DNA from: a virus
Reading direction: 5' to 3' (one strand)
IMG/VR virus record: IMGVR_UViG_3300037345_000004
Coordinates: 1 to 30,167 of that record
Length of the DNA stretch: 30,167 nt
Below are positions 9,134 through 30,167 of the stretch, piece after piece. Positions within the stretch are counted from its first letter, which is position 1, and each line of letters starts with the position of its first letter. The notes beneath the pieces were generated by a model. It did no database searches, was not told the DNA's origin, and saw only the letters and a list, made by a program, of their open reading frames with translations. A program made the translations under genes and the position numbers.

Positions 9134-9774
9134 TATACTTCTTCCAGACTTATTGAAACATTCCAATAATCAAAGTTTGTTCCTCTTTTTTCAACAGAAT
9201 AGGAAAAATCACTAATGAACATTTCTATTAGTTGGTTGTATTGTACTAGGTGGTCATAAGGATCTGGTGTTCCTTTAAATATTCCTTTTCTGTCATATGC
9301 AAGAAATACCCAAAAAGATCCTTTGTGAGAATCATACCACTCAAGCATGTCTCCTCCACCTGATCCACCATCTGTTGTGTAAGACTTATATGGGGATACT
9401 CCAGTTACTGAGTTAAAGGTTGGTATATCAGCATGAGACCTTGAAGGAATTAAATCCCAACTAGTGCTTAGTGTTAGTTTATCTGCAATGTGGTATGACC
9501 TCATTCGCCCATTAATCATTCTTTCACGCTTTTCAATTCTTTCTTGTGAAAACTCAAGTGGTTGTCTATTATCGTCAGTAATTAATAAAAACTGATCTAA
9601 CAATAATTCATCTTCTACACCTTCTGGGTTTACGCCTATCTCATAGCCATTTGGAACATACAAACCATTTTTTAATGTTCCAGAATTATCAGACCAGAGC
9701 ATTCCGCTTGGTCTATTGTATTTTTTACGACCACGAATATAGGATACCCTAGGATCTATCTCTTCATCGACCAT
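9133..9774 (-). CDS. Minor tail protein, distal-tail position
   Basis: A 213-residue protein directly after the tape measure, the usual place of the distal tail protein (Dit) in siphoviruses. The core QERIEKRERMINGRMRSYHI at ~78-97, leading into LTLSTSWDLIPSR, and the C-terminal FISDFSYSVEKRG form a beta-sandwich pattern suited to a ring at the tail end. A Gly/Ser-rich loop (GGSGGGD) lies near residue 140. The ATG overlaps the tape-measure stop by 11 bases. The ribosome site GAGGGGTG lies inside the tape-measure gene. Membership of the tail tip is firm. The precise Dit assignment rests on position. Confidence 0.72.
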   Translation of the reverse strand: MVDEEIDPRVSYIRGRKKYNRPSGMLWSDNSGTLKNGLYVPNGYEIGVNPEGVEDELLLDQFLLITDDNRQPLEFSQERIEKRERMINGRMRSYHIADKLTLSTSWDLIPSRSHADIPTFNSVTGVSPYKSYTTDGGSGGGDMLEWYDSHKGSFWVFLAYDRKGIFKGTPDPYDHLVQYNQLIEMFISDFSYSVEKRGTNFDYWNVSISLEEV

Positions 9775-12700
9775 TTAAGGACACCCCTCTAATTCTTCTA
9801 TCGTCAACCTTTTTAATTGTTGACATTACTGCTTGGGCAATTTCATTTGGATTTGCACCTGTCTTAGCATTAACAGTTAATGTGTATGTATTATTATACA
9901 CTGATCCACCAACTGATTCTCCACTATTTATTTTTTTCATGTTATCTACCCCGTAAGAATCTACAGCATACTTGCTCATAACAAATTCTCCAGGAGTCAA
10001 CATTGCTGGCACTGTGTCTGTTCCTTTTGCAAAACCACCCATTGCAAAGTACTTAGGGACTATTCCTCCCTTATAGATATATCCATATTTTGCTTTTCTT
10101 TCAGCAATTATTTGTGCTGATGTTTTTGCTGGTGTAGTTGCTGCTGATGCATTAACCCCTTGCATTGCAGAAACTCTTGCTTTTTCTGCAGCATCTAATC
10201 TTGCATCACTGTACGCCTTCATTTGTGCAGCAATTGAGGCTGCTCCAATAGCGCCACTTTCTTGTGATGCCAAAGCACTTGGGCTAAATACTCCTGACCT
10301 TTTTAAATCTTCTGCGGTTTTATCTGCTGCGGCTTTATCTGCTGCGGCTTTATCTGCTGCGGATTTATCTGCTGTGGCTGGCTCAATGGCAGTTGTAGAA
10401 TTACCTGCTTGGTCGGAAGTTGTGCTTAGAGAGTCTGTCCTTAATACTTGATTTTGATATGAAGAAATAAGTTTTGCATATATATCTATAGCATCTTTCA
10501 TTTCTTTTACAAACTGAGCGCTCTTGACTCTTGCTAGGTCAACAAGGTTTTGAATTCCTTCCCAGGCTTCTCTTGTTTTTCCTAAAACTGTAATTTCTTC
10601 AATAGATGTCTTAAGGGAAAGTTCATTTAGTCTTAAAGTTTCTCTCTTGGGCTCAAGGGTTTTTTCTTCAATGTTAAAAATATCTTCTTGTAATTTTTTA
10701 ATTTCTTCCTCAAGTTGCTTTCTACTCTTTCCATCTTTTGATCTTAATTCTGACAACTCAAAATCTCTAGATTTTTCTACTGCTTCTTTTTGTTTAGTAA
10801 CTGCACCTAATGCTGATTGTGCTCTCATTTCTTGAACGGCACGGGCTGCAGCAGAGATGTCTCCTGAAGTCAAAGCGTCTGCAAGAGTTAGTTGGCCTTT
10901 TTGTTGCTGACTAATAGAAGCATTTGCTTTTTCTACTTCGTCAAGTGCTTCAATTCTTTCGTCATACTTTTTATTAATTTTTTCTTCTTCATCTGCAATA
11001 GACTTAAGGGCTGCTTCTTTGTCATCAATTTCAAATTCTATTGATGATATTTCATTTTCTGCAGTTGTAATGTCCTCAACAAGTTGCTTATTATCAATAT
11101 TAAACTTAAGTTGAAGCCTTGTTTCTTCAACACTAAATGCCTCCATTGCCTGGCTCATACCATTAGTAAATATTTCTTCCATACCAGATATGGTCATTGA
11201 TTTAATCTTAAGTTCTACATTTGCACTGTCTAGTGTTTTTTGTAGTGTTGTTTTAAACTCTTCACTATCAATGCCCAGATTCATTAGGCCATCTTGTAGT
11301 GCTGAATTATTGAGAATAGCATCAATTTGATCAGTATTTAACTTTGATATGTTGTTCCCTAGTCTTGTCAAAAGACTTACTCTAGCATCAAGTTCTTTTT
11401 GTGTTCCGATCAAGGCTTCTGTTGCAGCATACTTATTTTTTGCTTTTGTAGCCTTTTCCCAAGTTTTAACAATTTTTTTAATTTGCTCATCAGATAGTTT
11501 TTTATTTGCAATGGCTGCAGCAAAGGTTGCATCTGCGACTGCTTCCAAAGCAACAGATCCTTCTACTCCTGCAACTCTTAGTCTTGTTAATGCTGTAGTT
11601 TGATCTCCTATTTGACGAGACATTCTTTCTTGATCACTTACAAACTCTCCAAGTTTAATTGATGCTATTGCATCTCCTATGCTTTTTGCATTATCTTTTA
11701 ACTTTATAATGTTACCCTTTTTATCAAACTCAAATAAAGACTTCTTTCTCTTTTCATATTCTTTAGGGTCCATACCCGTTATTAGATCTATTAGGTCTTC
11801 TCCAGCACCTATTTTTCTCATGTCATTTTCGATACCGCTAAATACTTCAATAGTTTTGCTACCGCCAAACAAATTATTAAGTGCTTTTTGTGATGCTGTA
11901 AAGCCTTCAGTTACTTTGATCTGGTTCTTTCTTACATCTCTTAATCTTTTTAATAGGTTATCAAGAGGCGATGAATCTATTTTTGTAGGTTCAGAAGGTG
12001 TAGTTACTCCTCCTTCTTTAGTTGAAATATCTGTTGCAGAGGCTTCTGTAACTTGCTGTGTTACAAATGTAACAAACTCAGAAAAAGTTTTTCCTTGATT
12101 TTTACCACCTTGTTCATTCACCCAGTTTTTATACTGTTCTGTTAAGGATGGATCCCCCTCCAGCCCCATAACAACTTTAAGATTTTGTAAATAAGTTTTT
12201 TGTTGGAGGGGTGGCAGTGTATCAAAATATGCCTGATCTGCTTTTAGTAATTGCATTTCTTCAGATCCTAGTACAGTTGCAGCAACCTCTATTTCAACCT
12301 TTTTGCTTGAATCTAACTTTTCTATAGCATTAAGAGAAGTTTGTAATTTTTCTGCTTCTATTGGATTGCTATTATAATAATTTAAAAGAACGTCTGCACC
12401 AACAACTACGTCAGACTGAGAAATTTTTTGAAATAGTTCTAATTGTTTTTGTGCTTCTTTAGAAGTTTTTGTTTTTATACTAGCAATAAAGGTTGTTGCT
12501 TGCTTTTTGTCTTCAAACATACCGACAATAGCCATCGTCTGGTTAGCAAAAGCACCACCAAATTGCCCAATGATACTAACAACATTTTCAATAGCAGCCT
12601 TGTCCTTGCCAAAAGTATCAAAAATTTCTATCATTTGCATTGGATCTATCTCTCCAGTTGCAAGTTGCATTTTTAATGTGTACTTAATTTCTTCATTAAC

Positions 12701-15700
12701 ACCAGAATCATCAATTAATGTTTTTGCTAATGGGGCTACGTCTTCTAATGCTGTTCCTTCATATTTTTTAGTAATAGATTTATCTACTCCAGTCATTAAT
12801 GCTTTTCTTGTTGCACCTTCCGAAGTTTCAAAGTTTTTTTGGATATCTCCTACTAATAGAGCATTTTCTTTTAAAAGTTTTATTCTGTTTTTTTCATGGT
12901 CTAGTGTTAATGTTTTTGTTTTATTTGTATCTCCTGCAGCCTTAGCAATTTCAAGTTCTTTTTGATATTGCAAATCTAATGAATCTAGCATTTCTTGTTG
13001 TTGCTCTAGTGCAATTTTTTGCATTGCTACTGAAGCACCAGAGGTCTCGCCAATTCTTCTATTTCTATCTTTTCTTCCAAATAGATTTCCTGCTGTTGCT
13101 CCAACGACTGTTCCTATTACTGCTCCTACCTTTAATCCAATGGCAGCACCTACAGCAGTACCAGCAGGTCCAGCCAAAGATCCTATAAGTCCTCCAGCAA
13201 TAAGACCGCCAATGGCACCGATTCCTGCTCCAGCAGCCGTAAAACCACCAATCTTTGCTACGTCTCCTCCAGTGACACCTCCAGCCCTTTTTGCTGCATC
13301 ATTAGAGATATTCATTCTTTCTCTTGTATCTTGCAAAAGTTTTACTCTTACTTCCAAAGGATCTTTTGCTAGATTTTCTCCATTAGGTCCAAGCAATTCT
13401 ATAAGTCTTGCATTTACTTCAATTCCAAAACTATAGTCTCTTAGTTCTTGTCCAATATTAGCGACTATGCTTCGTGCTTGATCTGCAGATAATGCTCCCG
13501 AAGCCACAGCGCTTGCCATCTGATTTACAACTTGATCTTTTGCTGCGGCCATGCCACTATTTTTAACAGTTGACCCAATATTTTTAGTCATTTCTTTTCC
13601 TTGTTCTCCTGCTATAAATGATTGACCAAACGTTGATTTGCCTGTTTGTATTTGAAATGGTGCAAAAGAATCTTTTCTTTTTTTATCCATAATCTCTCCA
13701 GCAGAAACTTTTCCTGCAAAAGTAGAAAGGTTTTTCATTGCATCAGCGCCAGCGCCCATGGCCTCTGTTAACTCTAACGCTGCATCTTGTGCTTTATCAA
13801 ATGCCATTCTTTGATATGCATATGCTGCTACGACCAAACCAACACCAACACCAAGTGCTGCAAACTTATTATTAAGCATTGGCATTATCATTGCTAGTCC
13901 CATAAGAGGCATCATAAGTTTTTGAGATATCTCTCCAAGTTTTCCTGGAGCCATTGAGCCAGCCATAGTGAGTGCTGATGCTGCCATAATTCCACCAGAC
14001 ATGCCCATTCCTGGTCTTCCTCCGCCCGCTATCTTGTTTTGCTTTGCTTGTTCTCTCTTTGCTGCATAACCTCTAACTTTTTCTGTAATATTTTTAGATC
14101 TTGTTGTGGCTTTAGCATTTGCTGCTGCTCGTTCACTAATAATTTTTTGCTGATAGGCAACCTTTGCTGCTATATTGCTTCTCTTCATTTCTGCTTGTGC
14201 ATTACGTCTCATAGACTTTGCATTTGCATCAACTGAACCAGTCCCGTAAAGAGAAGTTCTTGATGCCTGAGCCTTTGCTTGTGTTCTTGCCTCTGCTCTT
14301 TGTCTTTTCTCTATTTGTCTTCTTACAGACTTAGCATTAGCATCTACTGGTCCCGTTCCATAAAGGGCGGTTCTCGATGATGCCGCAGCAGACTGAGAAA
14401 GTGTTGTTCCAATTGTTTGACCAACTTTACCTGCACTCTTTATGGCTGACTTAGCACCCTTTATTACTTCCGCTGCAGTTCCAAAAACTCCATTGCTACC
14501 ACCACTAACCATTGGAGCGTTTGCCGCTCCAGGTATTGTAGTTCCTTTTGGTCCACGCACGTTTCTAACAGATGTTCCTTTTTTAGGGATGGAGGTCATT
14601 CTTGTATCTTTTGAACCTTGACTTGACTTAACTCCAGGTGGAAGCAATTTTGATTTTGGTTTTTTAGTTTTTTCTGTTTTGTCGTCTTGAATAACTTCGT
14701 CTGGCTTTATAGCAATAGATGTATGAAGTGCATGAAGTTTTTTATAATCAACATTTAATCCATCTTTAAGCCGTTTAACCATATCATCGTAGGCTTTTAT
14801 TTCTCCTCTTATTCTTTGTGCTTGTAATGAGTTATCATTGGGATTAGGCTGAACAAGTTTAAAGTCGGCAACTGTTTTTTCTAAGTTGGGAAGAACTCTT
14901 TTAATTTCATCCTTCATTGCTCTATCATATTCAGTTGCGGTCATATTTTTTGCAATGTCTGCTGTTGCATTACCAAACCAGAAAGGTGAACCTCCTGCAC
15001 TATTCCCCTTGACTCCACTTAAATTTGTTTTACCCATTGCAATCATTGAGGCAACATTAGCAAAATCTCTTTTTCCAGATGCTCTATCAAAAACTCCTGC
15101 TGCGCCAGGATCTGCCATAGTGTTTCCACCCAGGTTTCCTTTTTTAAGATCTTTATCTCCCCTAAGATTTGCTGCTACAAGTTGTCTAAAATATTGTTCT
15201 TTTGTAAAAGTCTTAGACATTTTTGATGGATCAAACTTTGAATTAAATGCTGACTCAAGAGCATAAAGAGTTTTGCCAGTGTTAGGATCTACAATTAGTT
15301 TTAATTTTTGTACTGGCGAATCAAGACCATGAACTTTTCTTGCAATCTCTGTTGCTCTTTGTTCTGCAATTGCTGACTTTAAATCTACCATTGGCTTTAC
15401 GTATACTTTTTTACCATCTTGCCTTACATGAATTCCAGAAAGATGTTTTGAATCAACATTACTAAATCCTTTTCCTACACTTAGTTGCTGTTTATAACTA
15501 GTTATTTGAGTTGGAATTGGAATTGGATTCTTTTTCTTAGTTTTTTCTGCTGCAGTCTTTGGTTTTTGAGGTTTTTGACTAATGTTTGGGGTTGTTCCTG
15601 TTCCCATTCTATTCATACCAACGACTGTTCCAGCAGGAACTGACACACCGTTGTATTTTCCAGCAGGAAGGGTTACGCTGGCGGACCTGGTTACCCGCTT

Positions 15701-18457
15701 GCCCTTGCTATTTATTCTTTCATCAAGTTTATAATCTAGTATAAATCCTTTTGCTTTTGCATTTTCAAGAATTTTTATACTTGCTTCTACAGTATTTCCT
15801 AAACCCTTGCCCATATTAAAACGATAGTCAGTTGCGTATAGTTTTTTAGATTGCAGGTATCCTGGATCATTAGCAGGGACTAAGGTTGGAATCTTTTCTC
15901 TATACAACTTGTCTATCAATGAGTCATTTACAACTGGAGACTTGCTTTCTCTTAATAATTTTAAAAATGCTTTATCTAAGTTTTTAGCCTGCACAGGATC
16001 TATATTAGAGGCTTTCCATTTATCTGATCCTCTTTTTTCCCACTCTGCTATAAAGTCTGCTCTGTCTACTCCACCTGTAAGGCTTGTCATTGCTGTATTC
16101 ATTGGTCCAGAAAAATTAAACACTAATCCATGCTTGGTTGTTGTTGTGGCAGGCAAACCTTGAGATTTAAACAGTTGCTCCATAGAAATAAGTTTTAATT
16201 TTTGATCCTGACTCATGTATGGATTGTTTGCTATTACCTCTGATATAGGCTTTGGAGTACTTTTTCCACCTATGTGAGTTTTATTTGTGTCTGCAATCTT
16301 GTTTGGTTTTGTTTTCTTATTATTAATCATATCTTCAATGTTTTCTATGTTATCTGGATCTTGTGCAGCCGATGCTGGAATTACTGCTTCTCCAGCAGTA
16401 AGGAGTGCAGGTACGGTATCTGTGTTACCTACTCCTGGAACTTTGGTTGTTCCTAAGTTGTATCTTTTTATACCCTGGATTTTTCCTGATGGGCTTCTTA
16501 TTGGACCAATGAATCCTGCTTGTGATGAAATTGCTCTTTGATAGGCTATTGCTAAAGCATTTACTGCTGCTGCCTCAGAAGTAAAGGTTTGTCTAAGTCT
16601 TTGGTGAACTTGATCAAGAGATGCAGCAACGGCAGAGGCCTCTAACTGCTCTTGAGTTAAATAGTTTGTTTGCTGTCCAAGAATTTGGGTTGAAGATCCT
16701 GCTCTTTGAAATCCTGATCTCATTGTTGCAAAAAGTTTAATTATGTTTGCAACACCATTTGCAAGCAAACCAAAAGACATAAGGGCAATGGGTCCAACAG
16801 CACCAAGGGCTACAGTAAGTATTGTTATAAACTTTTTACTGCCTTCTCCCAGTCCATTAAACTTGTCTAGGATCTTTGAAACAAACTCAACAATAGGAGT
16901 AAGTGCTTTTAAGAACTGTTCTCCAACTGGAGCAAGCGCAACCTTTAGATCTTCCATAGTTTTCTTAAATTTATAAGTTGTTGTATCTTCAATCTTACTT
17001 AATTCTCTTTCAGATAGAATTGCAAGTTCTTCTGTTGTTGCAGATGCAAGAGTTAATACTCTAGATGCTTGAGTTCCTTGCGCTGTTACGTTTTGAAATA
17101 GTGTAGAAAGTCTTGAGAACTGAAACTTTCCAAATAATTGTTCAATAGCACGAGCACGATTAAGCGGATCAAGTGTCTCTAACGCTTGTGCAAATTCAAC
17201 TACAGTAGACTTTACATCTCCAGCATTTGATTCTACAATTCCATTTATGTTAACTCCAAGACCCTGTAGCATTTTAGATGCTTTTTCAGATGGATTAATT
17301 AATGAAGCAAGACCAGATTTAAGTGCGTTAGCACCTTCTGATGCATTAATTCCACCTTCCTTCATTGCTGTAAGGAAGAAAGCCAAGTCTTCTACATCTC
17401 CACCAAGTTGCTTGACAACTGGTCCAGCCTTTGGAATTGCTATAGTTAAGTCTTCAATAGATACAACAGTTTGGTTTTCTACTGCGTTAAGAAAGTCAAT
17501 TTTTTTAGCAAGGTCTTCTGTTGAAACACCAAATGCATTTGTAACAGAAATTGTAGTTTTTAGTGCATCTTCTTGTTCAACTCCACCAAGAATGGCAAGT
17601 CTTGTTGCTTGTGCAACTTGAGCAGTTAAATCTGCACCCATCTTGCCCATTGCTGCAGCATCTGCTGCCATCTTCATTGTATCTTCTACTGCAACTCCAT
17701 ACTTAGTGTACTCGCTTGCAAGCAGTTGAATCTCTTTAACCATTCTATTAGTTTCTTCTGCTGTTGTAAATAGTTCTCCATAAACTCTTTTAAATCTAAT
17801 CGCCTGCTCTTCAAGTTTCATGAATGTTTTTGCTGCTGCAGTACCAAGATAAATAAGAGGGATTGTAAAACCAACCATCAACTGACGGCCTGCCCACTGG
17901 GTGTTCTTACCAAAGTTTAGAAGTTTTGTTGATCCTTGTGTTAGTAGTTGATTTAAGACCTGTTGTTTTTGTGCTGCTATGGCTGTTTGTGTGCCTAGGT
18001 TTTTCATGTCTAGTGCAAGTGGTCTTACAGCAATTGCTTGAAGGGCTCCATTAGCGCCACGGCCCATCTTAATATATTGGGTTTGAATATCTTTAACACG
18101 CTCTCGTGCTACCTTATTTATTGTTTGAAACTCAGATGCAAACAATCTGCCAAAAGTCTTTGTTGCTGCTCCAGTGTATCTAAAATATTCTCTGGATGTT
18201 AACTTGTTTTTTTCTAATGCATTTGTAAACTGTTCTGTACTTGTGGAAACATTTCGCATAGATGCTTGAAATTGTCCAGTAGCATTTATGCTGTTCATCA
18301 AGTTTTGTGCTTGATTTCCTGCAACCGCATTTGCTGCAGTTCCAGACTTTGACATTTGTGTATGGAAGGCTGATATTTGACGCTGTAACTGCTTTAAACT
18401 TGCTAAAGCCCCAGACGTATTAATATTTACATTAATATTGGATTGAACATCAGCCAT
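9764..18457 (-). CDS. Tape measure protein with inserted kinase-like domain
   Basis: A 2897-residue protein that sets tail length and is ejected at infection. The N-terminal ~530 residues hold the TP901-type tape-measure region (SEYTKYGVAVEDTMKMAADA, then LAFFLTAMKEGGINASEGAN). A hydrophobic segment lies at ~533-580. The motif GNTDTVPALLTAGEAVIP occurs at 677-694 and again as GTDTVPAMLTPGEFVM near 2812-2827, bracketing the rest. In between are a region with kinase-like signatures (~987-1190), a duplicated 20-residue unit, a hydrophobic segment (~1485-1545), a glycine-zipper membrane segment (~1725-1795) and long coiled coils (~2420-2680). An AADKA repeat lies near residue 2700. At about 1.5 angstrom per residue the tail could reach some 400 nm, less any inserted globular parts. 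The ATG follows AGAGGTG. Confidence 0.95.
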   Translation of the reverse strand: MADVQSNINVNINTSGALASLKQLQRQISAFHTQMSKSGTAANAVAGNQAQNLMNSINATGQFQASMRNVSTSTEQFTNALEKNKLTSREYFRYTGAATKTFGRLFASEFQTINKVARERVKDIQTQYIKMGRGANGALQAIAVRPLALDMKNLGTQTAIAAQKQQVLNQLLTQGSTKLLNFGKNTQWAGRQLMVGFTIPLIYLGTAAAKTFMKLEEQAIRFKRVYGELFTTAEETNRMVKEIQLLASEYTKYGVAVEDTMKMAADAAAMGKMGADLTAQVAQATRLAILGGVEQEDALKTTISVTNAFGVSTEDLAKKIDFLNAVENQTVVSIEDLTIAIPKAGPVVKQLGGDVEDLAFFLTAMKEGGINASEGANALKSGLASLINPSEKASKMLQGLGVNINGIVESNAGDVKSTVVEFAQALETLDPLNRARAIEQLFGKFQFSRLSTLFQNVTAQGTQASRVLTLASATTEELAILSERELSKIEDTTTYKFKKTMEDLKVALAPVGEQFLKALTPIVEFVSKILDKFNGLGEGSKKFITILTVALGAVGPIALMSFGLLANGVANIIKLFATMRSGFQRAGSSTQILGQQTNYLTQEQLEASAVAASLDQVHQRLRQTFTSEAAAVNALAIAYQRAISSQAGFIGPIRSPSGKIQGIKRYNLGTTKVPGVGNTDTVPALLTAGEAVIPASAAQDPDNIENIEDMINNKKTKPNKIADTNKTHIGGKSTPKPISEVIANNPYMSQDQKLKLISMEQLFKSQGLPATTTTKHGLVFNFSGPMNTAMTSLTGGVDRADFIAEWEKRGSDKWKASNIDPVQAKNLDKAFLKLLRESKSPVVNDSLIDKLYREKIPTLVPANDPGYLQSKKLYATDYRFNMGKGLGNTVEASIKILENAKAKGFILDYKLDERINSKGKRVTRSASVTLPAGKYNGVSVPAGTVVGMNRMGTGTTPNISQKPQKPKTAAEKTKKKNPIPIPTQITSYKQQLSVGKGFSNVDSKHLSGIHVRQDGKKVYVKPMVDLKSAIAEQRATEIARKVHGLDSPVQKLKLIVDPNTGKTLYALESAFNSKFDPSKMSKTFTKEQYFRQLVAANLRGDKDLKKGNLGGNTMADPGAAGVFDRASGKRDFANVASMIAMGKTNLSGVKGNSAGGSPFWFGNATADIAKNMTATEYDRAMKDEIKRVLPNLEKTVADFKLVQPNPNDNSLQAQRIRGEIKAYDDMVKRLKDGLNVDYKKLHALHTSIAIKPDEVIQDDKTEKTKKPKSKLLPPGVKSSQGSKDTRMTSIPKKGTSVRNVRGPKGTTIPGAANAPMVSGGSNGVFGTAAEVIKGAKSAIKSAGKVGQTIGTTLSQSAAASSRTALYGTGPVDANAKSVRRQIEKRQRAEARTQAKAQASRTSLYGTGSVDANAKSMRRNAQAEMKRSNIAAKVAYQQKIISERAAANAKATTRSKNITEKVRGYAAKREQAKQNKIAGGGRPGMGMSGGIMAASALTMAGSMAPGKLGEISQKLMMPLMGLAMIMPMLNNKFAALGVGVGLVVAAYAYQRMAFDKAQDAALELTEAMGAGADAMKNLSTFAGKVSAGEIMDKKRKDSFAPFQIQTGKSTFGQSFIAGEQGKEMTKNIGSTVKNSGMAAAKDQVVNQMASAVASGALSADQARSIVANIGQELRDYSFGIEVNARLIELLGPNGENLAKDPLEVRVKLLQDTRERMNISNDAAKRAGGVTGGDVAKIGGFTAAGAGIGAIGGLIAGGLIGSLAGPAGTAVGAAIGLKVGAVIGTVVGATAGNLFGRKDRNRRIGETSGASVAMQKIALEQQQEMLDSLDLQYQKELEIAKAAGDTNKTKTLTLDHEKNRIKLLKENALLVGDIQKNFETSEGATRKALMTGVDKSITKKYEGTALEDVAPLAKTLIDDSGVNEEIKYTLKMQLATGEIDPMQMIEIFDTFGKDKAAIENVVSIIGQFGGAFANQTMAIVGMFEDKKQATTFIASIKTKTSKEAQKQLELFQKISQSDVVVGADVLLNYYNSNPIEAEKLQTSLNAIEKLDSSKKVEIEVAATVLGSEEMQLLKADQAYFDTLPPLQQKTYLQNLKVVMGLEGDPSLTEQYKNWVNEQGGKNQGKTFSEFVTFVTQQVTEASATDISTKEGGVTTPSEPTKIDSSPLDNLLKRLRDVRKNQIKVTEGFTASQKALNNLFGGSKTIEVFSGIENDMRKIGAGEDLIDLITGMDPKEYEKRKKSLFEFDKKGNIIKLKDNAKSIGDAIASIKLGEFVSDQERMSRQIGDQTTALTRLRVAGVEGSVALEAVADATFAAAIANKKLSDEQIKKIVKTWEKATKAKNKYAATEALIGTQKELDARVSLLTRLGNNISKLNTDQIDAILNNSALQDGLMNLGIDSEEFKTTLQKTLDSANVELKIKSMTISGMEEIFTNGMSQAMEAFSVEETRLQLKFNIDNKQLVEDITTAENEISSIEFEIDDKEAALKSIADEEEKINKKYDERIEALDEVEKANASISQQQKGQLTLADALTSGDISAAARAVQEMRAQSALGAVTKQKEAVEKSRDFELSELRSKDGKSRKQLEEEIKKLQEDIFNIEEKTLEPKRETLRLNELSLKTSIEEITVLGKTREAWEGIQNLVDLARVKSAQFVKEMKDAIDIYAKLISSYQNQVLRTDSLSTTSDQAGNSTTAIEPATADKSAADKAAADKAAADKTAEDLKRSGVFSPSALASQESGAIGAASIAAQMKAYSDARLDAAEKARVSAMQGVNASAATTPAKTSAQIIAERKAKYGYIYKGGIVPKYFAMGGFAKGTDTVPAMLTPGEFVMSKYAVDSYGVDNMKKINSGESVGGSVYNNTYTLTVNAKTGANPNEIAQAVMSTIKKVDDRRIRGVSLNGR
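10311..10382 (-). repeat. 15-bp tandem repeat in the tape-measure gene
   Basis: On the plus strand, the unit tctgctgcggcttta occurs in full at 10323-10337 and 10338-10352, with one change at 10353-10367. Degenerate copies flank these at 10311-10322 and 10368-10382. It encodes a five-residue Ala-Ala-Asp-Lys-Ala repeat near residue 2700, probably a flexible helix or linker. Because the unit is a multiple of three, slippage would change copy number without breaking the frame. Confidence 0.85.
14204..14377 (-). repeat. Duplicated 20-residue unit in the tape measure
   Basis: The segments at 14204-14263 and 14318-14377 encode two near-identical peptides, SRTSLYGTGSVDANAKSMRR and SRTALYGTGPVDANAKSVRR, spaced 114 bases (38 residues) apart. 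They differ at three residues. They sit in an Ala/Arg/Lys-rich helical region just before the first large hydrophobic segment and look like an internal duplication. Confidence 0.85.
14888..15499 (-). other. HipA/PI3K-like kinase signature inside the tape measure
   Basis: Residues ~987-1190 read like an atypical protein/lipid kinase fold. VYVKP gives an N-lobe lysine at 1021. Glu1032 or Glu1037 sits in the following helix (AEQRATEIARKVHGLDSP). YALESAF at 1065-1071 resembles a hinge. LRGDKDLKKGN at 1098-1108 gives a catalytic-loop pattern Asp1103-x4-Asn1108. GVFDRAS places Asp1124, 16 residues later, as the metal-binding aspartate. The order and spacing match HipA-type kinases as I remember them. 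The segment is hydrophilic and not coiled coil, unlike the flanking tape measure. The assignment is by motif reading only and the domain ends are approximate. Confidence 0.42.
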
Positions 18458-27889: not shown

Positions 27890-30167
27890 TCATGCTGGAT
27901 CAACGACGAACTGGTTCCAATTTACATCTGCAAACACAGTATATGCGTAGTCTTTAAACCTAATAGGTCTCTCATCGTCTACAACAATCTTGTTTGTTCC
28001 TGTATAACTCTTATAAACCTCTGAAGGATTTACTCCATAATAACTTGTTTCTGATAAAACAAGAACCTTGTTCCAATTAAACGATGGTATATTCCAAAAT
28101 TCCCAATCAAGTGCAAAAGATCCAAGAACCTTTACTCTAAACCATGGTCTTTCTGCTATGTTTTGAACTTCTTGTAGGTTGGTTGATTGATAGTACGAAA
28201 TGCTGTTAAATAGCAACGGCCCTGTTAGTCTTACTGCTCCCTCAAAAAATGAAAAGTTTAAACTACTTGCAAAATTGATTCCAAGGAATCCCCACTCTTG
28301 CAGAGTTATTACTGGCTCTCTAACAACCTTTCCATTCCAGTAAAACCCAATACCATCTTGAACAAGTCCAGTCCTTGCATCTATCGCATAAATTTTTGCT
28401 CTTTGTCCTGAAGGATCTGTTGCCACCATATAAAACTTTATATAAGAGTCTTTGCTTTCTAATTCAAATATTTGTGTTGGAGCATAAGGAAAATAGTCTC
28501 CATCAAATCTAACAGCCATTTGCATTGCTATCACCTTAAAGCCTTCTGCCCTGCTTGCATTGACTGGAATTGTTAATCCACGATTTACTAATGGATCCTG
28601 CGTTCCTTTTAATTGGATACCGCTATTTTTTGTTAAATATAAATAAGGAGAAGACCCTGTATATATTGAAAAGGGATTATTCTTTTTAAAATCATAATAT
28701 ATTCCAGACTTTGTATAAGGATAAATAGATGTTCCAAATCTTGTTCCTATTGGACTTGCATCAGATTCGTTTAACGCTTGTGAACAGTAAGAAAGTTTTT
28801 TAATAAAAACATTATTTGTCTCTGAGTTTTTAACATTTGCTTCTATATGTGTTACTAAAGAAAGATCATTAAAGTCAACGCCTTTAGGTGGGTATATTAT
28901 CATTCCATCTACCACTTCGTATTTTGTTGTCATCCAGTCTGATCCAGGAATAAGAACTCCAGTCCTTGATGGTCTTTCTGTTTTTGTAAAATAATAATAA
29001 GTTTGATTTGCACCCAACTTTGTATATTGAAAAGTTATATATGATTTTACTACAGCCCCGTCAGTATCATACCTATAGTCTTTTGATATTTTATTTTTTA
29101 AGTCTTCGTAATCATTGTATCCAGTAAATAAATAATTATCTAAGGATGTATAAGTTCTTTGAACTGGCACACCGTACTCATTTGCCAACTCTGAATAGGT
29201 CCAACTTTCTGGATCAGTTTCAATTGCTATAGTTTTTGATGGCACAGGATAGTCAATATTAAACTGTATAAAATCAAGATCAAAGTATTGATCTCCTCTT
29301 TTATCAAGAACTGACTCAGCAAAATATGTTAATGGCAACTGGTCTTCCCAATATGCGCTTGCAGAGACTGTAAGTTTAAAGTTATTAAAAATGTTTTGAG
29401 GCAAAAGAGTATAACTTGCTACATGATCTATCAAATAGTCTTCTTCTAAAACTACTACACCACCACCAGTAATTGCACCGTTGGCCGTATCTGTTACTCC
29501 TCCATGTGGTGGCATGGATGTTGTATCAATACCTCCATCTATATTTATTAACTGATTATTTTGATAGATGGCAAAAAGATCTTCGTTCCAAACTGGAACA
29601 CCAATCTCATTAAACAACGATTTAATTTTTTGAAAGTTGTATTTTGTGCATAAGCCAATGCTATAAATTTTTCCAGTGAAGGTTGACTGATTATTTTTAT
29701 CTCCTCCAACATACAGCCTTAGATCAGAAAGAGATCCAAAGAAGTCTGAGGTTGGGTTTCCAAATCTAGAAACAAATACTGGAATATTAAGACCTATATC
29801 CACAACCTCTCCTGGCTCAGCAACCAAAGGGGAGTAGATTGTTTCAGAAATGCCATTATGGTTTATAATATAAGAAATTTGATTGTTTAGCAACTGTATT
29901 AAAAAATAACTATTTGTATTTTCTTTTTCAATTTTAAAAAGTGTTTGAACAGAACTAGAAGTTTCTGGTAATTTAAAACATCCATAAAATCCAGATACTG
30001 GTGTTTTTATAAAATTAAAATCTTCAAAAAACAAGTAGCCCGAAACTGAGTTCCAAGAAGAGTTTGGCTTAAATGAAAAAAAGTTTGTTGTGTTTATTTC
30101 TTGAGCAGTTTTGCAATCTAGTAAAAGTTCTTCTTCTGTTTTTGATGATAAAACAATTTGTGGGAGT
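27890..30167 (-). CDS. Large virion protein with LamG/concanavalin-like modules (5' end off window)
   Basis: The frame is open to the right edge, giving 758 visible residues. An internal TTG at 30034 is not a convincing start, because the coding pattern continues upstream (TNFFSFKPNSSWNSVSGYLF). Two beta-sandwich regions of LamG type can be made out. One lies near the visible N-terminus (SGFYGCFKLPETSSS ... DLRLYVGG ... GKIYSIGLC). The other is in the last third (MQMAVRFDGDYF ... IKFYMVATDPSGQRAKIYAI). Such folds bind glycans or act as adhesion modules. No signal peptide, membrane segment or enzyme motif is visible. It is encoded before the portal, away from the other tail-tip genes. A fibre or adsorption role is inferred. 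Confidence 0.7.
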   Translation of the reverse strand, partial: LPQIVLSSKTEEELLLDCKTAQEINTTNFFSFKPNSSWNSVSGYLFFEDFNFIKTPVSGFYGCFKLPETSSSVQTLFKIEKENTNSYFLIQLLNNQISYIINHNGISETIYSPLVAEPGEVVDIGLNIPVFVSRFGNPTSDFFGSLSDLRLYVGGDKNNQSTFTGKIYSIGLCTKYNFQKIKSLFNEIGVPVWNEDLFAIYQNNQLINIDGGIDTTSMPPHGGVTDTANGAITGGGVVVLEEDYLIDHVASYTLLPQNIFNNFKLTVSASAYWEDQLPLTYFAESVLDKRGDQYFDLDFIQFNIDYPVPSKTIAIETDPESWTYSELANEYGVPVQRTYTSLDNYLFTGYNDYEDLKNKISKDYRYDTDGAVVKSYITFQYTKLGANQTYYYFTKTERPSRTGVLIPGSDWMTTKYEVVDGMIIYPPKGVDFNDLSLVTHIEANVKNSETNNVFIKKLSYCSQALNESDASPIGTRFGTSIYPYTKSGIYYDFKKNNPFSIYTGSSPYLYLTKNSGIQLKGTQDPLVNRGLTIPVNASRAEGFKVIAMQMAVRFDGDYFPYAPTQIFELESKDSYIKFYMVATDPSGQRAKIYAIDARTGLVQDGIGFYWNGKVVREPVITLQEWGFLGINFASSLNFSFFEGAVRLTGPLLFNSISYYQSTNLQEVQNIAERPWFRVKVLGSFALDWEFWNIPSFNWNKVLVLSETSYYGVNPSEVYKSYTGTNKIVVDDERPIRFKDYAYTVFADVNWNQFVVDPA

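Follow-up and report, generated by a model that had tools for sequence, protein, structure and literature searches.

In the excerpts of the published papers considered here, the phage kinases that are named come from T7 and 933W, from CotH kinases fused to hypervariable lectin domains, a carrier different from the one described below, and from HipA-like kinases of Gratiaviridae phages, which are separate genes between the portal and capsid genes (PMC8008677). According to the same kind of excerpts, polyvalent proteins of phages carry effector domains, kinase domains included (PMC5512222), and MuF toxins are enzyme domains that form part of a virion protein, or are joined to one, and are presumed to reach the host cell (PMC5576092), an arrangement also attributed to T4 Alt. 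Domain databases are said there to under-represent tape measure proteins (TMPs), whose sequences are described as mosaic (PMC10684548). During injection, the TMP of lambda makes contact with proteins of the inner membrane, where the SNIPE defence probably recognises the TMPs of siphophages (PMC13190303). Finally, the excerpted account of Tme, from a contractile injection system of Streptomyces davawensis, presents it as a TMP-related effector with an active endonuclease (PMC11126660).

Here we describe a domain with a predicted kinase fold that lies inside a phage tape measure protein. Its best fold matches are the CotH and CtkA kinases (5jda, 3akk), which are of similar domain size but share 11-14% identity with it and are not borne by a tape measure. 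With HipA/HipT and PI3K/PI4K the domain has in common the fold (Z about 7-10) and a D-x4-N ... D layout, although it is unmatched by the Pfam profiles of these families. T4 Alt, the MuF toxins and the polyvalent proteins are head, packaging or packaged proteins, unlike the TMP-borne domain, and polyvalent kinases are described, in the excerpted text, without a C-terminal subdomain, whereas our model has a helical C-lobe. The resemblance to Tme lies in a tape-measure-like protein with an effector enzyme; in the excerpted account, Tme carries a C-terminal endonuclease in a non-phage system, whereas here the candidate enzyme is an internal kinase. Our search of open-access PMC text turned up no paper that places a kinase within a tape measure, and the excerpts of PMC8876498 and PMC7824862 mention kinases and tape measures only apart. 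We rate a kinase in a TMP as a variant of virion-borne effectors, phage kinases and virion-delivered enzymes both being already known.

The window, meaning the whole 30,167-base virus record that was analysed, holds a minus-strand block of structural genes. By PHROG, these encode a portal, a head maturation protease, an Ig-domain protein, a tape measure and tail proteins, as well as a structural protein of the virion that matches a major head protein family more weakly. A 714-aa ORF at 27890-30034, without a PHROG or Pfam match, adjoins the portal gene at the spot where a terminase might be expected. The TMP was identified by profiles over its N-terminal part: residues 252-443 match Pfam PhageMin_Tail PF10145 (87.4 bits, cut-off 33.2), and the best match among the PHROG tape measure families is PHROG 10030 (E 2.1e-98). 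The parts of this protein are as follows, with coverage and identity taken from a comparison with 79 kinase-bearing TMPs in 50-aa bins.

9764..18457, minus strand: TMP ORF of 2897 aa with an ATG start, the largest ORF of the window
16388..18457, minus strand: conserved TMP core, residues 1-690 (identity 52-86%, coverage 0.83-0.96 in 79 TMPs)
16733..16834, minus strand: hydrophobic segment, residues 542-575 (Kyte-Doolittle window mean up to 2.04), a possible membrane segment
15509..16387, minus strand: variable module 5' of the kinase, residues 691-983 (coverage 0.24-0.45)
14696..15508, minus strand: predicted kinase-fold domain, residues about 984-1254 (conserved island, AlphaFold2 model and kinase matches)
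14468..14695, minus strand: Pro/Ser/Thr/Lys-rich linker 3' of the kinase, residues 1255-1330 (by composition and low coverage)
13091..13240, minus strand: two glycine-rich hydrophobic segments, residues 1740-1789 (weak Gly-zipper profile match under the cut-off)

Across the 79 TMPs, coverage falls to 0.24-0.45 over residues 701-1000, stands at 0.93-0.97 with 49-59% identity over residues 1001-1200, and drops again to 0.35-0.55 over residues 1251-1450. Residues 1001-1150 thus form a conserved island between variable stretches (94-97% coverage, 52-59% identity), and Pro, Ser, Thr and Lys abound in the linkers that flank the kinase. The original prediction had placed a kinase-like catalytic signature in residues 987-1190 of the 2897-aa minus-strand ORF, which is window 14888-15499. 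Both the coordinates and the strand are correct, but the domain reaches further, to about 984-1254.

The residues singled out in that prediction, K1021, D1103, N1108 and D1124, are present at the positions named. However, shuffling the whole TMP 200 times reproduced a loose K-E-DxxxxN-D pattern in 195 cases, and shuffling the 204-aa segment 2000 times did so in 411. Because the pattern is so common in shuffled sequences, the motif by itself proves nothing and we rejected it as evidence for a kinase; the case rests on conservation and structure, with the motif set aside.

To assess conservation, we collected relatives from IMG/VR in successive scans for the domain, which gave 17 loci, 51 loci, 80 of 253 and 80 of 202. 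A profile search in all reading frames detected the domain in the window and in each of 222 loci (L002-L223), without a tail of weak scores. Many of these loci are repeats of one contig, and they reduce to 104 distinct domain sequences in 80 clusters at 95% identity; the active-site counts use 103 of the 104, the remaining one being a C-terminal fragment without that region. For the alignments, set A1 comprised the window and 16 of the 17 loci of the first scan (L017, which is truncated, was left out), later sets took 43 of the 51 loci and then added 49 of 80, leaving out near-copies, and set A3 comprised the window and 41 representatives at 90% identity. The recruitment patterns of the three later scans contained the stretches around K1021, E1032 or E1068, whereas D1101, D1103, N1108 and D1116 were in no recruitment pattern of the viral scans. 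A further set was recruited by TMP residues 251-450 at 80-93% identity, and the best 80 of its 583 relatives are the near kin of the window. Since this set was drawn by the TMP core and not by the domain, its 35 distinct domains are free of motif-recruitment bias. The active-site candidates are listed below with their counts in the 103 distinct domains and in the 35 core-recruited ones.

15395..15397, minus strand: K1021, predicted ATP-binding Lys in the strand VYVKP (103/103; 35/35)
15362..15364, minus strand: E1032, predicted helix-C Glu (102/103; 35/35)
15254..15256, minus strand: E1068 in the hinge-like LES (102/103; 34/35)
15134..15157, minus strand: predicted catalytic loop D1101-K-D1103-L-K-K-G-N1108, following model helix 117-130 (D1101, D1103 and N1108 each 103/103; 35/35)
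15104..15112, minus strand: D1116-P-G1118, predicted DFG-equivalent metal-binding motif (both residues 103/103; 35/35)
15086..15088, minus strand: D1124, the second Asp of the original prediction (41/103; 16/35)

Sequence conservation therefore covers the Lys, Glu, catalytic Asp, Asn and metal-binding Asp of a protein-kinase-like fold. Three of the four residues originally proposed, K1021, D1103 and N1108, are invariant, while the second Asp had been misplaced by eight residues: D1124 is replaced elsewhere by K, G, A, S, N, E or T, and its conservation led us to reject it as an active-site residue. Because D1116 and G1118 are invariant and D1124 is variable, we predict that D1116, within a D-x-G motif, is the second Asp that binds metal. 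The segment DKDLKKGN (1101-1108) reads like the HRDLKxxN of protein kinases. Counting against a kinase reading, N1108 and D1116 lie closer together than the equivalent residues of most kinases.

The structural evidence comes from an AlphaFold2 model built from 42 diverse sequences (pLDDT 91.1, pTM 0.89). It replaced an earlier model from 17 sequences (pLDDT 68), whose matches already included CotH, CtkA, HipT, HipA, Fam20C and PI4KII. In model numbering (model residue + 969 = TMP residue), strands at 19-25, 39-43 and 48-54, the last containing K1021 (model residue 52), precede a helix at 57-72 with E1032. These are followed by strands at 82-87 and 94-101 (E1068), a helix at 117-130, the catalytic loop at 132-139, and a helical lobe extending to 277. 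The order of elements in the model is canonical, namely strands, helix C, hinge, helix E, catalytic loop and helical C-lobe.

Comparing the model with known structures by VIA-align yielded Z of 8 or more in 27 of 999 chains. The highest score belonged to CotH 5jda (Z 12.1, rmsd 4.2, 224 residues aligned), followed by CtkA 3akk (Z 11.2, rmsd 4.1, 198 aligned), PI4KII-alpha 4hne (Z 9.8, rmsd 5.4, 212 aligned), Vps34 3ihy (Z 9.3, rmsd 4.6, 215 aligned), HipA 4pu4 (Z 9.1, rmsd 4.3, 193 aligned) and HipT (Z 8.8). With a Z gap of less than 1, CotH and CtkA are tied as the nearest fold of the model. Judged by title, all of the 50 matches listed by VIA-align are kinase-fold entries, counting among them a LepB N-terminal fragment, which we took to have a kinase fold. 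Foldseek alone was weaker and counts against the assignment: its best PDB match was CtkA with E 9.4e-4 and TM 0.36. The top six matches from a viral library, with E between 2.8e-5 and 7.8e-4, were large phage proteins that are named ADP-ribosyltransferase, portal protein or PI3/4-kinase, or are unnamed. Taken together, the predicted model and the VIA-align scores describe a two-lobe kinase fold, and on this modelling the domain almost certainly adopts one. Structure prediction thus bore out the expected kinase fold, with HipA among the matches. The proposed HipA/PI3K-like layout was right as to the fold, but CotH and CtkA are nearer and the HipA and PI kinase family profiles were not matched.

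Searches by sequence counted against a named family: Pfam, PHROG and PDB chain sequence searches gave no kinase family name for the domain or the TMP. CotH PF08757 had no match in the search with the window or in the 42 members scanned, despite being the nearest fold, and HipA_C PF07804 had none in the record of the window or in the same number of members. PI3/PI4 kinase Pfam families were absent from the TMP matches and from the 25 families listed for 42 domain members, and no Pfam protein kinase match indicative of a Hanks-type Ser/Thr kinase was found for the TMP, the domain or 42 members. An hhalign comparison with E. coli HipA, a weak test given that it uses a single HipA sequence, returned nothing and likewise counts against the assignment, and the MuF domain was not among the Pfam matches of the TMP. 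The matches that did arise in PDB sequences, to an axonemal protein (E 0.0024), a surface-layer protein, designed proteins and an enoyl reductase, look like chance and were rejected.

We then compared TMPs with and without the domain. Among the best 80 of the 583 core-recruited TMPs, 42 have the domain, 27 do not, and 11 are too short to tell; since the kinase is naturally missing from 27 of the 69 near relatives that can be assessed, we rejected it as an essential part of the TMP. These proportions describe the near kin of the window only. The 27 include two TMPs that are open at the 3' end (L258 and L291) and one that stops at 1404 aa (L272), and none of them showed a decayed kinase copy (best profile score 2.7 bits). 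Three TMPs lacking the domain (L276, L297 and L269) match L292 on either side of a clean gap, where a short linker stands instead of the L292 domain at 1011-1273. A core tree of 59 sequences requires at least 6 presence/absence changes, compared with a mean of 18.4 after shuffling, and does not tell gain from loss. The 24 longer records contained the domain once in 21, always in a frame of 2771-3693 aa, and the other 3 (101-114 kb), in which the TMP lacks the domain, had none elsewhere in the record. Within the domain, dN/dS has a median of 0.13 (range 0.064-0.542; 97 pairs more than 75% identical). Overall, the domain is under purifying selection and is an optional, swappable accessory cassette of the TMP.

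On balance, we favour the reading that the domain is an active atypical kinase, ejected with the TMP, that would modify an envelope or cytoplasmic target of the host early in infection; fold, conservation, selection and cassette behaviour are computed, and from here on we infer activity, delivery, timing and substrate. The domain is very probably catalytically competent, a discrete kinase with a CotH/CtkA/HipA/PI4KII type of fold set in the variable region of the TMP. In the predicted active site, K1021 and E1032 would place the ATP, D1103 would act as catalytic Asp, and the metal ions would be bound by N1108 and D1116. By analogy with known TMP biology, the kinase is probably delivered as an effector: at infection it would leave the tail as part of the TMP, arrive at the membrane or in the cytoplasm of the host, and fold or refold there. 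Early on, it may then use ATP to phosphorylate or otherwise modify a protein of the host or a molecule of its envelope, for example a defence or takeover target. The absence of the domain from 27 of the 69 assessable TMPs counts against the favoured reading, and a second consideration counts against delivery. A folded domain of 270 residues is probably too wide for the lumen of the tail tube, which is about 4 nm, and the domain must therefore be stored unfolded or elsewhere.

An active kinase could instead work during virion assembly, phosphorylating the TMP or tail proteins so as to control tail polymerisation or TMP unfolding, with no effector involved. The location within a structural protein is compatible with such a role, as are the conserved active site and the single copy per record, yet 27 of the best 80 relatives lack the domain, and assembly presumably proceeds without it in the close relatives whose core and flanks are the same. 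Clean gaps and at least six gains or losses also speak against assembly, which we regard as an unlikely function. Given the presence/absence pattern and the diversity of the neighbouring modules, a host- or defence-dependent role fits better. We consider it equally unlikely that the TMP delivers a kinase-fold enzyme of another chemistry or substrate, such as AMPylation, glutamylation, or phosphorylation of a lipid, sugar or cell-wall precursor. The fold does not fix the acceptor, and the nearest folds include the lipid kinases PI4KII and Vps34 beside protein kinases; on the other side, the DxDLKxxN loop with its invariant D1103 and N1108 reads like that of protein kinases, and the top two fold matches, CotH and CtkA, are ones we take to be protein kinases.

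The original prediction had itself offered a degenerate domain serving as a spacer as its alternative. A pseudokinase or inert spacer could lengthen the ruler or dock tail parts, and complete TMPs with the kinase are indeed longer (mean 3013 aa, n=33) than those without (mean 2556 aa, n=24). A spacer, however, does not have to retain K, E, D, D, N, D and G in 102-103 of 103 sequences, and the lack of decayed copies in the 27 TMPs without the domain points the same way, making this explanation very improbable.

If the favoured reading of a delivered, active kinase is correct, phosphorylation would be added to what a siphophage tail can deliver, and the passage of a folded enzyme through a narrow tail tube would become a directly testable question, for which the natural pairs of TMPs with and without the domain are ready-made comparisons.

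The module between the core and the kinase varies from 69 to 882 aa across 77 TMPs (77 of the 80 clusters, the other three having no core in the locus). The module of the window, residues 691-983, has no Pfam match. Ten upstream modules were scanned, and one of them, between the TMP core and the kinase in L135:4501-5997, has a cytidylyltransferase-like Pfam match (25.4 bits, cut-off 21), which makes it, by sequence, a second enzyme-like cassette in the slot beside the kinase; the other nine had no Pfam match above cut-off. The slot regions of ten TMPs without the kinase gave nothing above the Pfam cut-off and showed no other enzymes. We tentatively propose, as a broader idea that may well not hold, that in siphophages at large the variable slot following the TMP core serves for loading effectors, and that such enzyme cassettes, strung along the inside of the tail tube, would enter the cell first with the TMP, refold where injection takes place and affect the host ahead of phage gene expression. 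Under this same tentative proposal, the kinase would be the commonest cassette found here, and membrane-bound defences that recognise tape measures would be example targets.

We found this domain lineage in metagenomic virus contigs only. Among 50,697 phage records, tblastn with the domain gave two unconvincing matches (E 6-7) and the divergent L063 domain gave none, so that no cultured phage with the domain was found there; pattern scans of bacterial and archaeal genomes also found no relative. The nearest cultured TMP cores are those of Streptomyces phages, at about 30% identity. WhiB, which we used as an actinobacterial marker and which among 14 control genomes matched Corynebacterium only, occurs in 11 of 20 longer kinase-bearing records. 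These marker genes suggest Actinobacteria as hosts, and the carriers would be long-tailed phages that probably infect them.

Two further observations concern individual relatives. The TMP frame ends early in L017/L238, at 1229 aa and inside the kinase, and in L272, at 1404 aa and without a kinase; a frameshift, a split gene or an assembly error may account for these ends. In the nearest relative among the matches listed (L002), the second half of the domain is near identical to that of the window (14696-15508) while the first half is clearly different, and this half-and-half likeness suggests recombination within the domain.
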